Assembly: GCA_017615615.1 (NCBI GenBank)
Contig: JAFZZW010000031.1
Span: forward strand, 1 to 34,691
Source: Bacteroidales bacterium
Lineage (GTDB): Bacteria; Bacteroidota; Bacteroidia; Bacteroidales; UBA932
DNA: 34,691 bases
Direction of reading: 5' to 3'
This document shows positions 10,116-18,629 of this stretch, piece by piece (positions within the stretch are counted from its first letter, which is position 1; every line of letters starts with the position of its first letter). The notes under the pieces are model-generated. The model worked only from the letters and a program-made list of their open reading frames with translations. It was not told where the DNA came from and did not search any database. Position numbers and translations under genes: made by a program.

Positions 10116-10151
10116 TGCCGTGTGCAAAAACGCCTTGATTTGCACACGGCA
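10116..10151. repeat. Palindromic repeat, hairpin 1 of a pair
   Basis: Perfect 13-bp arms TGCCGTGTGCAAA (10116-10128) and TTTGCACACGGCA (10139-10151) around a 10-nt loop. The inner 10 bases of each arm are identical to those of the second hairpin. It begins 5 nt after the DUF4249 stop and may also terminate that transcript. Looks like a REP-type element. Confidence 0.75.
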
Positions 10152-10170
10152 TCACTGTTTTCGGCGGGCT

Positions 10171-10200
10171 CGTGTGCAAAGGGGCCCGGTTTTGCACACG
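10171..10200. repeat. Palindromic repeat, hairpin 2 of a pair
   Basis: Perfect 10-bp arms CGTGTGCAAA (10171-10180) and TTTGCACACG (10191-10200) around a 10-nt GC-rich loop, 19 nt after hairpin 1. Arms and loop length match hairpin 1 but the loop sequence differs, so the arms are what is conserved. Confidence 0.75.
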
Positions 10201-10225
10201 GGGGCGGGCATTCGGATTCTTTTGT

Positions 10226-14422: not shown

Positions 14423-16590
14423 TATCCTATTTGGGAACCGTTGTTCAATACTTCTGCAGGGGTGACGAAGCGCATGGTGCCGTCCTGCTGTCTGGCCATG
14501 AGGATCATGCCCCGGCTATCTATCCCGCGGATGACGCGGGGCTTGAGGTTGGCCAGGATGCATATCTGCTTGCCGACCATGTCTTCCGGGGAATAGAATT
14601 CCGCGATGCCGGAAACGATGACGCGGCGGTCGACTCCGGTGTCGATGGAGAGCTTGAGCAGTTTGTCCGTCTTGGGAACGCGCTCGGCCTCCAGTACGGT
14701 GGCGGTGCGGATGTCCATCTTCTCGAAGTCCTCGAATGTGCATTCGTCCTTGAGGGGGGCGACGCGTCTGGCCTCCTCGGCCTTGCGGGCGGCCTCGATC
14801 CGCTCCCTGGCGGCGTCCAGCTTGCGGAGCTGGGCATCGATGGCCTCGTCCTCTATCTTGGCGAAGAGGAGCTCGGCCTCGCCGATGGCATGGCCTGCGG
14901 GAAGGATCTGCGGCCTGCCGAGAATCTCCCAGTCGAGGCGTATTTCGCCGGGTGCGGGAGCGGGGACCTCGCCGCTGACGGTATGCAGCGCGCGGCCTTC
15001 CCCTGCCTTATAGGTGTTGACGGTGACGGCCTCGCCGACGCGGTGGTCCGAGCCTGCAAACAGCGTGACGCCGAGCATCTTGCGCAACCTCTCGGCCGCG
15101 AACGGGGTGAAGGGCTCGAAGGCGATCGCCAGGTCTGCACAGAGCTGCAGGCAGATGTTGAGGATGGTGCCGGTGCGGGCCATGTCGGTCTTGGCAACCT
15201 TCCAGGGCTCGGTGTCCGATATGTATTTGTTGCCGGCGCGGGCCATTCCCATGGCGTCGCGAAGGGCCTCGCGGAAGCGGAAGCCTTCCAGGTTTTTCTC
15301 CATGGAATCCCTCAGGGCGGGAATCTCCGCCAGCACTTCCTTGTCTGCTTCTTCCAGGGAACCGCAGACGGGCACTTTGCCGTCGAAATATTTATGCGTG
15401 AGCACTACTGCACGGTTGACGAAATTGCCGAATATGGCCACCAGTTCGCTGTTGTTGCGGGCCTGGAAGTCTTTCCAGCTGAAGTCGTTGTCGGCGGTCT
15501 GGGGGGCGTTGGCAGTGAGGGTATAGCGCATGACGTCCTCCTTGCCGGGGAAGTCCTCCAGATATTCGTGGGCCCATACCGCCCAGCCGCGGGAGGTGGA
15601 TATCTTGTCGCCCTCCAGGTTGAGGAACTCGTTGGCGGGGACGTTGTCGGGGAGGACGTAGCCGTCGCCGTAGGCCTTGAGCATGGAGGGGAACACTATG
15701 CAGTGGAAGACAATGTTGTCCTTGCCGATGAAATGGATCAGGCGGGTGTCGGGGGACTTCCACCATTTCTCCCAGCTTTGCGGAAGGAGCTCGCGGGTGT
15801 TGGAAATGTATCCAATGGGGGCGTCGAACCACACGTAGAGCACCTTGCCCTCGGCACCCTCCACCGGTACGGGTACGCCCCAGTCGAGGTCGCGTGTGAC
15901 GGCCCTGGGCTGAAGGCCTCCGTCCAGCCAGCTCTTGACCTGGCCGTAGACGTTGGTGCGCCATTCCTTGTGGCCCTCGAGAATCCATTCGGAAATCCAC
16001 TTCTCGTAGTCCTGCAGCGGCAGGTACCAGTGGGTGGTCTTTTTCTTGACGGGGGCGGCGCCGCTGAGCTTGGAGCGGGGGTTGATGAGCTCCTCGGGGC
16101 TGAGTGTGCTGCCGCACTTCTCGCACTGGTCGCCATAGGCGTTTTCGTTGCCGCAGCGGGGGCAGGTGCCTACTATGTAGCGGTCCGCCAGGAACGTATG
16201 GGCCTCTGGGTCGTAGTACTGCTCGCTCTCGCGGGTGACGAACTTGCCTTCGTCGTACAGCTTGCGGAAGAACTCGGAGGCGCCCTCGGCATGCACCGGG
16301 GAAGACGTGCGGCCGTAGATGTCGAAGTTTATGCCAAGCCCCGTGAAGGAGTCCTTTATCATCTTGTGGTAGCGGTCCACTATGTCCTGGGGCGTGCAGC
16401 CCTGCTCGCGGGCCTTGATGGTTATGGGGACTCCGTGCTCGTCGGAGCCGCAGACGTACAGGACGTCACGGCCCCTCATGCGGAGGTAGCGGACGTAGAT
16501 GTCGGCGGGAACATAGACTCCCGCAAGATGGCCGATGTGCACGGGGCCGTTGGCGTACGGCAGGGCACAGGTTACAAGTGTTCTATTCAT
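14422..16590 (-). CDS. metG: Methionyl-tRNA synthetase
   Basis: A 722-residue enzyme that charges tRNA-Met. The class I signature is [11 protein letters not shown] (11-21) and the KMSKS-like loop is KISTSRG near residue 332. A zinc knuckle is formed by CPRCG and CEKCG (Cys143, 146, 156, 159). Residues about 615-722 form the EMAP/Trbp111 tRNA-binding domain ([18 protein letters not shown] through [15 protein letters not shown]), which in this type also makes the dimer contact. An Ala/Glu/Arg-rich coiled stretch (about 580-605) links it to the anticodon-binding domain. Length is normal. It overlaps dnaG by 4 nt upstream and a secreted-protein gene by 1 nt downstream. Confidence 0.97.
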
Positions 16591-18629
16591 TTCTTGTCGG
16601 TTTTTTCTCTTCCTATCATTTGGTTTATACGGCGCTGGGCGGCCTGGAGGCGGAGAAGTTCCTGCATCAGGGGGAGCTGCTCTTGGGGTGAAGCCGAGGC
16701 GAGCGAGCGGCGGACGGCGTCAATGCGGTCCTGGACGCGGCGCTCGGCATACACCATTATTGCCTTGGGCACGCCGGTGGCGAGGAAAGTGGTGCGGCTT
16801 GTGAGCGCGGCCTCGAACGCCCCCACCGTGAGCTGGTACTTCTCGGTGGAGAAGCGGGAGGTGAGGTCCGCGAGAATGCGGTCCTCTCCGTCGAGGAGAC
16901 TCTTCACTATGGCCTGCTGGTCGATCCCGGTGTCGTACAGGGACATATATGCGTCGTACAGTTTGCGGTATGCCGAATTGGCAAAGACGGTGCCGTCGTC
17001 CTCAAGCGCCTCTCGGATGAACTGCGCTACGGTGGGCTTTTCGTCTTCGCTGCCGGAGTAATACGGGGAGTCGGTCTCGAAGTCCAGAGGCTCGCGGCCG
17101 TAGGTGAGGAGGAAGTACAGCAGGTCCCTTTCCGATGGCGCCAGGGTGCGGTTCTCTAACATGAACTGCTCGGAATCAGCTCCCGAAGCGTCTCCTGCGG
17201 CTCCCCAAGATGAGGCTGAAGGGGATCCGTAGGAGACGCTTCTCCCGCTGATTCCCTGATCTTCAGAAGCCACATCATTTCCGGAAATTTCCCTGGCGCT
17301 GCGCTGGCGGTCGCGGAGCTGCTCCTCCTGCATCTTCTTGCGGACGCGTCCGATGCGCTCGAACAGTATGCCCTGCTCGATGTTGAACCGCATGGAGACG
17401 GTCTCTATATATACCGAGCGCTTGACGGGGTCCGGTATCTGGGCGATGGTGTCGGCTATGTCGTTGATGAGTTCCGCCTTCTTGAGGGGGTCGTTGCCGG
17501 CCTCGGAAAGCAGAAGGTCGGTCTTGAACTCGATGAAGTCGCGTTCGCCGGAGGCGATGTAGTCCTGAACCTCCTGCAGAGTGTGCTTGCGGCCGAAGGA
17601 GTCGGGGTCTTCGCCCTCCGGGAGGAGAACTATCTTGACGTTGAGGCCCTCGCGGAGCACAAGCCCGAGACCGCGGATGGCGGCGTGGATGCCGGCGCTG
17701 TCGCCGTCGTACATTATGGTGACGTTCTCGGTGAACTTGTGGATGAGGCGGATCTGTTCCACCGTGAGGGAAGTGCCGAGCGATGCCACCACGTTGGTGA
17801 TGCCGAGCTGATGGAGGGTTACCATGTCGACGTTGCCCTCCACGAGTATGCATTTGCCGCTGCGGGATATCTCCGCCTTGGCGAACCATATGCCCAGCAG
17901 CTGGCGGCTCTTGACGTAGATTTCGGTCTCCGGGGAGTTGACGTATTTGGCCGGGTTGTCGGCGTGGAGGGTACGGCCGCTGAAAGCCAGTACGCGCCCG
18001 CTGACGGAGTGGATGGGGAACATTACCCTCTCGCGGAACTTGTCGGCCACGGAGCCGTCTTCCCGCTGTACGGCGAGGCCGGCGGCGAGGAGGTATTCCA
18101 GCTTGTAGCCGGCCTTTTGGGCGGCGTCGATGAGGGAGGTGCGGCCGGAAGGGGCCCAGCCAAGGCCGAAGCGGCGTATGGTTTCGTCCTCGAGGCCGCG
18201 GGAGCGGAGGTAGGCGTATCCTACGGCCCTGCCCTCAGGGGTTTCGAGCTGGGAGGCGAAGAATTTCTGGGCGAATTCGCTCACCAGAAGGAGGCTTTCC
18301 CGCCTCTGGCGGCGCTCGGTTTCCTCCGCCGATTCTTCCTCTTCCACTATGTCGATGCGGTATTTGGCCGCAAGGTAGCGGAGCGCCTCCACGTACGAGC
18401 TGTGCTCATGCTCCATGACGAAGCCCACGGCGGAGCCGGACTTGCCGCAGCCGAAGCATTTGAATATGCCCTTGGCGGGGGAGACGTAGAAGGAAGGCGT
18501 TTTCTCATTATGGAAGGGACAGCATGCCACATAGTTGGCGCCGCGGCGCTTGAGCGTCACGAAGTCTCCTACGACTTCTTCGATGCGGGCGGTGTCGAGG
18601 ATGAGGGATACTGTTTCCTGTGGAATCAC
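16587..18629 (-). CDS. dnaG: DNA primase with palindromic insert in its linker
   Basis: A 680-residue primase that makes RNA primers at the replication fork. The CHC2 zinc finger is CCPFH (36-40) with CFGCG (58-62), and the toprim core holds [15 protein letters not shown] (about 260) and YDGDSAG. The C-terminal about 170 residues should be the helicase-binding domain. Between the catalytic core and that domain, residues 459-486 are a Gly/Ser/Ala-rich stretch ([10 protein letters not shown] through DASGADS) encoded precisely by an 84-bp inverted repeat at 17172-17255. It overlaps recQ by 4 nt upstream and metG by 4 nt downstream. The start ATG at 18629 gives [19 protein letters not shown], the normal N-terminus. 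Confidence 0.97.
17172..17255. repeat. 84-bp imperfect palindrome inside dnaG
   Basis: The outer arms GGAATCAGC (17172-17180) and GCTGATTCC (17247-17255) pair, followed by a 5x5 internal loop. Next come 11-bp arms AAGCGTCTCCT (17186-17196) and AGGAGACGCTT (17231-17241), then GCGG against CCGT, one mismatch, and TCCCC (17202-17206) against GGGGA (17221-17225), closing on a 14-nt loop. That gives 28 base pairs about a centre at 17213.5. The 84 bp equal exactly 28 codons and start on a codon boundary of dnaG, so the frame is kept. It looks like a mobile palindromic element in a tolerated linker. Confidence 0.75.

Follow-up and report, generated by a model that had tools for sequence, protein, structure and literature searches.

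In-frame palindromic inserts have been described mainly from intracellular Rickettsia, and intragenic REPs, ERIC and other repeats are reported from some other bacteria (excerpts of PMC10969869, PMC3733652 and PMC2229807). The Rickettsia palindromic elements (RPEs) are stretches of palindromic DNA that are translated in frame within conserved protein genes, where they are tolerated, and they also occur between genes (passages in PMC10969869 and PMC2229807). Wolbachia elements related to the RPEs figure as a title in the reference list of PMC2229807. A 2013 study concerned intragenic GTAG/CGTC REPs, which are short palindromes, often arranged as inverted dimers, many of them in genes for DNA synthesis or repair. 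As dimers or groups, these REPs encode 20–30 amino acids, and it was suggested that within flexible linkers or loops they may be neutral (sections of PMC3733652). Neither dnaG nor primase is named in the main text of that paper. Small repeats of other bacterial families, among them ERIC and YPAL, also have open frames and have been fused in frame to protein genes (part of PMC2229807). Among open-licence PMC papers, we found no report of in-frame palindromic inserts in Cryptobacteroides or Bacteroidales.

The window analyzed here is a stretch of 34,691 nucleotides from a Bacteroidales bacterium whose lineage is probably Cryptobacteroides, judging by its named DnaG relatives, which include Candidatus Cryptobacteroides avistercoris. 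Its dnaG gene harbors an 84-bp palindrome. The palindrome keeps an open frame, is absent from the relatives seen, encodes a segment that is predicted to be disordered, and differs in codon usage from the rest of the gene. Other, repeated elements behave in the same way, some elsewhere in this genome and some at the corresponding linker in other species. Our preferred reading, to which we assign a probability of roughly 0.55, is that the dnaG palindrome is an in-frame insertion that the gene tolerates, resembling the RPEs in behavior but an orphan in sequence.

Structure and significance of the palindrome

The dnaG gene (16587..18629, minus strand), recognized from its ORF and Pfam matches, encodes a DNA primase of 680 amino acids, with a GTG start as listed. 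Inverted-repeat scanning, folding, shuffling and third-position GC content (GC3) characterize an imperfect palindrome at 17172..17255. Codon 459 of the minus-strand gene starts at position 17255, so that the 84 bp are codons 459–486, a run of 28 residues; the initial annotation had placed the element on exactly these codons. That the length is divisible by three is not independent evidence, as this would be demanded of anything tolerated within a gene.

The two arms (17172–17206 and 17221–17255) are 35 nt each and 83% complementary, with 29 of the 35 columns pairing; scan and fold agree on a 14-nt loop between them (17207..17220). According to the fold and a column count, the outer part of the structure consists of 9-bp arms (17172..17180 paired with 17247..17255), and the inner arm (17185..17206, partner 17221..17242) contributes 12 + 3 + 5 pairs separated by two single mismatches. 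Column count and sequence place an unpaired TCCC (17181..17184, plus strand) opposite a second TCCC (17243..17246), and this internal loop reads GGGA/GGGA on the coding strand. The long imperfect inverted repeat announced by the initial annotation is thus present, with a corrected tally: the Watson-Crick pairs number 29, not 28, in blocks of 9, 12, 3 and 5, and the consensus structure also has 29. Of the marks of a MITE, namely terminal inverted repeats and a flanking target-site duplication, inverted repeats are present, and inspection of the sequence revealed no direct repeat immediately abutting either end of the palindrome. We considered a nested insertion, in which an inner palindrome entered a small hairpin with duplication of GGGA, as the source of the TCCC/TCCC loop. 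It was set aside because it requires steps of 22 and 62 nt, each of which would break the frame of an essential gene.

Folded as RNA with 10 nt of flanking sequence on each side, the palindrome reached −57.4 kcal/mol on the coding strand (z −6.3) and −58.8 kcal/mol on the other strand (z −7.4), values that none of 200 shuffles matched on either strand. Its inverted-repeat score, counted as +1/−1 per column, is 23. The maximum was 17 in 2000 shuffles of dnaG (1000 synonymous, 1000 of codon order), and scores did not exceed 16 in 1.02 Mb of codon-shuffled sequence generated in 50-kb blocks. These figures bear out the earlier statement that such symmetry is rare by chance in coding DNA.

The linker of DnaG

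Where in the protein does the insert fall? Four Pfam domains (Zn_ribbon_DnaG, DNAG_N, Toprim and DnaB_bind) were matched within residues 3–419 of DnaG, and nothing was matched beyond. The initial annotation located the palindrome between the catalytic core and the helicase-binding domain. A conserved C-terminal part does follow it, since the search of relatives found residues 487–680 to be 86% identical to the DnaG of genome G010; the DnaB_bind match itself, however, covers residues 367–419 and lies ahead of the insert. An AlphaFold2 model built from 28 aligned DnaGs has a mean pLDDT of 83, and only residues 450–489 and 596–607 form segments with a pLDDT below 50, i.e., predicted disorder. As regards the translation and function of the 28 inserted residues, this prediction is consistent with their being tolerated.

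The codons of this segment are atypical as well: GC3 is 0.50 in codons 459–486 and 0.52 in codons 443–490, compared with 0.82 in the other dnaG codons, and the twelve 28-codon windows of lowest GC3 in the gene start at residues 444–455. The atypical region thus extends a little beyond the palindrome. From alignment and GC3, we delimit it as residues 443–490 (17160..17303, minus strand), whose third positions are atypical and whose sequence does not clearly resemble the nearest relative's linker. Codon choice deviates in other DnaG linkers too: across 95 DnaGs, the GC3 of the linker minus that of the remaining gene has a median of −0.04, and only one DnaG lies below the −0.29 of this gene.

Positions 17256–17303 of the window (residues 443–458), upstream of the palindrome, also belong to the low-GC3 region. 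Those residues were examined as a decayed repeat of the type found in pheT (see below). They show a gapped resemblance (GGGAAATTTC..CGGAAATGA), but it was equaled by 73 of 2000 shuffles, and we rejected the idea.

DnaG was found in 30 of the 31 genomes searched, own genome included, and further loci were the 80 best among 588 named ones, partly from the same genomes (L069, for example, is L009). Among the resulting 110 DnaG rows, of which 109 have a linker (counting our own and one duplicate), the window stands alone with a linker inverted-repeat score of 23; the next scores are 16 (L020) and 14 (L100). The highest score in the N-terminal parts of the DnaGs was 17 (L133). The initial annotation had proposed aligning DnaG from close relatives, and the insert is indeed missing from the nearest of them (L007/G010, core identity 0.95). 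There, the linker region has 59 residues vs. 80, lacks the palindrome, and does not clearly resemble its counterpart in the window. On its own, this absence from the DnaG orthologues of near relatives is weak evidence of an insertion, since linker sequence and length differ within the group in any case: in the 56 DnaGs with a complete linker and a core identity of 0.60 or more, the region is 39–100 residues long, with a median of 67.

Search for further copies

The assembly to which the window belongs comprises 92 contigs and 1.93 Mb and is 72% complete. A blastn search of it with a 111-bp query returned the element in direct and in reverse-complement orientation, plus a 17-nt match at an E value of 1.2. 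Covariance model R1, applied with stricter filters to 41 genomes, recovered the dnaG element only. Across 101 genomes of the genus, own included, the best foreign blastn match had an E value of 0.005. When 400 genus genomes (again with our own) were searched and at most two candidates per genome were scored, at least 21 had a match at E ≤ 0.02, the foreign matches being weak and at most 36 nt long. Some of these, of 33–36 nt, clustered at query positions 14–51; the five loci that we read all proved to be the same conserved gene from different species, and this cluster was discarded. We take the product of that gene to be KduI-like. Phage records yielded no match to the palindrome and plasmid records a single one, of 32 nt at an E value of 0.2.

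Short-word blastn in 568 kb of the genome likewise matched the dnaG palindrome to itself alone. Six of the seven other palindromes queried had a relative at E < 0.05 in the same search. For the seventh, a dimer at L183 5654–5747, blastn found nothing better than 0.15, yet the model accepted it, so blastn evidently misses diverged members. Short-word blastn detected no kinship between the dnaG element and the GTGTGCAAA family described below, and neither this method nor model R2 linked it to the REP dimers of similar length.

The related copies that the initial annotation envisaged elsewhere in the genome were therefore found neither by blastn nor by covariance model, and the 399 other genus genomes gave weak, short matches. 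It had also named two findings that would speak against it. One, the lack of any other copy, is what we observed; the other, conservation of the 28 residues in relatives, is not, as these residues are not conserved. The lack of a second copy is the strongest evidence against membership of the dnaG element in a family. Because its own assembly yielded no second copy and the foreign matches are short and weak, we do not assign the element to a mobile family.

Repeated palindromes in the same genome

Scanning the 568 kb for inverted repeats identified 55 places with a score of at least 13. The dnaG palindrome tied for second, a rank that refers to all scanned places and not to coding sequences. 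The highest scores belong for the most part to repeat families or to ORFs with no assigned product; inverted repeats of comparable score lie mostly outside recognized genes.

One repeated palindrome of this genome does sit within a gene. The pheT gene (L197:1115–3634, G000:C29) carries a palindromic segment that keeps the frame and has TGTCATTTCGAGCGAAGTCGAGAAATCTC as its arm, a member of the TGTCATTTCGAGCGAAG family; the insert extends from about 1715 to 1830 and is situated between the Pfam matches to tRNA_bind and B3_4. The 29-nt arm occurs at seven places in the genome when up to three mismatches are allowed, pheT included, and a reversed-pattern control occurs at none. The six other places are at the edges of ORFs or have no ORF of 150 amino acids, and none is inside a recognized gene. 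At the insertion spot, the PheT of this genome has 66 residues, compared with 39–47 in 19 other aligned PheTs, all of which lack the insert (loci from 20 of 21 genomes, the fragmented gene of G004 being left out).

The genome also has two RAYT-like Y1_Tnp ORFs, whose Pfam scores of 25.5 and 19.9 bits lie above and below the cut-off, respectively. Both are flanked by palindromes (L257, G000:C29:33051; L256, G000:C62:17340). Those around the L257 gene are 92-bp inverted dimers of the form TGTCGTC..GACGACA, with the sequence TGTCGTCCGGGGTGCC..GGCACCCC-loop-..GACGACA, and model R2 places such dimers at no fewer than 10 sites in the genome and in at least 8 of 18 relatives. Against this model, built from six members that themselves score 86–100 bits, the dnaG element attains 9.4 bits at 17139–17239, out of register. 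The best R2 match within dnaG, 11.1 bits, lies elsewhere than the palindrome.

Two further arrangements were observed. An intergenic part of the window (10118–10201) carries a pair of GTGTGCAAA-N10-TTTGCACAC palindromes with a 52-bp spacing; the scanned 568 kb contain 17 such units, or 34 matches when each strand is counted. At L181 1051–1228 and 2265–2442, CGAACAAA..TTTGTTCG palindromes have a spacing of 51 bp, close to the 52 bp of the GTGTGCAAA units, with different sequences.

Repeated elements in the DnaG linkers of other species

In L063, G016 and G004, the DnaG linker carries an in-frame repeated element, a different one in each. The linker of L063 (core identity 0.90; genome G113, UBA1197) carries TCATCCTGAGCGAAGCGAAGGATC, which is present at 19 places in that genome with at most two mismatches, dnaG included; the control gave 0. 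It also has a tandem duplication (DPYVTQGDPSFNPN). Loci with repeats of the TCATCCTGAGCGAAGCGAAGGATC type include L143, L144, L146, L149, L150, L152 and L159, and in some genes they form inverted pairs. At 7 of the 19 places, the repeat is in frame inside a nameable gene or at the edge of one of its domains. By Pfam, the in-frame cases are DnaG, RmlD (311 residues for 285 profile positions), Phos_pyr_kin (ThiD, with two stretches), Mur_ligase and BacA (280 residues for 256 profile positions); another repeat comes just after a GH92 match. The Mur_ligase gene is presumably MurE, the BacA gene UppP, and the repeat-bearing ORF of L144 RimO-like. The remaining 12 places have no ORF of 150 amino acids, are near the ends of ORFs, or fall in ORFs with no assigned product.

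The linker of G016 (L020/L162) contains a 73-nt element with further copies in its genome at 96% and 93% identity. The former is in a Peripla_BP_2 ORF, upstream of the domain match, and the latter in a PmbA/TldD ORF, between domains 1 and 2. As GAGCGAAGCGA is common to both, the elements of L063 and G016 may be related. A second hairpin stands directly after the 73-nt element in this linker (18-nt arms, 4-nt gap, score 16); searched in its own genome, it returned itself and one weak 20-nt match.

Finally, the linker of G004 has GCCGGGCATGACGG repeats, and a 90-nt query from it found 17 matches in that genome at E ≤ 0.1, itself included, the weakest at 0.096. Similar motifs are present in the linkers of L071, L074 and L075, and the query had 3 matches in the L071 genome and 28 in that of L075. 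The linker of L099 holds a TCATTCCCGG..CCGGGAAT palindrome. Taken over 109 distinct DnaGs, repeat motifs were detected in the linkers of L063, L009, L071, L074, L075, L099 and L020. Outside the linker, dnaG gave two matches (L006, with a mismatch, and L099), both in ordinary conserved coding sequence.

Origin of the dnaG palindrome

How might the palindrome have arisen? We propose that REP- or RPE-like palindromic DNA entered dnaG after the split from the nearest sampled relative, at a linker site between the catalytic and C-terminal parts of the primase. It would have been kept because its length is a multiple of three, because no stop codon interrupts the frame used, and because it fell in a disordered linker whose length and sequence are nearly free. 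For the protein, the insert would be an extra Gly/Ser/Ala spacer and nothing else, and the hairpin would be a relic of the way in which palindromic DNA arose or moved. The orphan sequence may itself once have been mobile, and a Y1 (RAYT-like) transposase of the kind encoded in this genome could have placed it. We treat that enzyme as a possible maker of the insertion only, given that the likeness to the Y1 dimers is one of size and loop, not sequence. In favor of the RPE-like reading of the initial annotation, the insert is lineage-specific among the DnaGs seen, lies in a segment predicted to be disordered, and has the company of repeated in-frame palindromes in pheT and in the DnaG linkers of other species; the further copies that it envisaged were not found.

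The main rival is a local origin, in which a template switch or inverted duplication at replication copied a stretch of the linker backwards beside itself and the copies then diverged to 83% pairing, with no mobile element involved. The palindrome is single-copy in the searches made, the linker is variable and predicted to be disordered, and the same linker in L063 has undergone tandem duplication, all of which would suit such an event. A fresh inverted duplication would be perfect, however, and the TCCC/TCCC block is hard to obtain by single-base drift. Moreover, repeated elements occupy this linker in other species, so an insertion needs no new process. We consider a local origin rather unlikely.

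Could the palindrome instead be kept for a function in the dnaG message, such as slowing the ribosome between domains or protecting the transcript? The very stable fold of the transcript would be expected of such a structure. On the other hand, the untranscribed strand is equally stable, and the other linkers scanned, that of the nearest relative included, have no comparable hairpin; this absence from relatives makes a message-level function unlikely. The palindrome is no intrinsic terminator, as no U run follows the stem and the coding strand goes on GAGCAGTTCATGTTAGAG. Rfam returned only two matches, both to microRNA models (E values of 0.26 and 0.62), at about 20 bits vs. gathering scores of 90 and 100. 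Taken together, an RNA function is improbable. Chance symmetry in a low-constraint stretch coding for Gly, Ser and Ala is more improbable still: a score of 17 is within reach, both in shuffles of dnaG and in the N-terminal part of the L133 DnaG, but 23 was attained neither in the 2000 shuffles nor in the 1.02 Mb of codon-shuffled sequence. Least credible of all is a fold-back join in the metagenome assembly, fragmentary and incomplete though that assembly is, for such a join would give perfectly complementary arms and the frame runs unbroken through the element into the C-terminal part shared with G010.

A broader version of the insertion reading, which we advance tentatively, is that, in this Bacteroidales lineage, different repeated palindromes have landed in the DnaG linker again and again, the 84-bp element being the founder or the last copy of a further family. 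If true, there would be a wider and apparently undescribed counterpart of the RPEs in Bacteroidota, present also in PheT, RmlD, ThiD, Mur-ligase and BacA-family proteins. The in-frame repeated palindromes in primase, PheRS beta and Mur ligase belong to Bacteroidales from animal guts, an origin taken from the titles of related contigs, and they would indicate that the process extends beyond the reduced genomes of endosymbionts. With several natural insertions at one site and relatives that lack them, the DnaG linker makes neutrality directly testable. In-frame palindromic stretches can also mislead annotation.

Comparison with known systems

The dnaG element is likened to ERIC and YPAL by description, not by sequence, and those are repeated families of other taxa. 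With the GTAG/CGTC REPs it has in common that it is a short palindrome inside a gene for DNA synthesis. Those REPs, however, are repeated units of high copy number, 20–40 bp long, with a GTAG/CGTC tag at one end; no copies of the dnaG element were found, and although GTAG and CGTC occur inside its arms, no tagged REP unit could be established.

Closer at hand, the REP dimers of the same genome, exemplified by the 92-bp imperfect palindrome with a 14-nt loop at L257 1811–1902, are similar to the dnaG element in size and shape, but no sequence relationship was detected. The pheT insert resembles it in being in frame, between domains (there, of a tRNA synthetase subunit), and absent from the 19 other PheTs; it differs in that its arms belong to a repeated family, whereas the dnaG arms have no relative in the 568 kb.

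The RPEs form repeated families of about 105–150 bp, according to the excerpts cited above, whereas the dnaG element measures 84 bp, with no further copy detected in its 72% complete genome; its host also appears to belong to a different phylum. What it shares with the RPEs is a palindrome above chance expectation, absent in near relatives and read in phase within a conserved protein gene.
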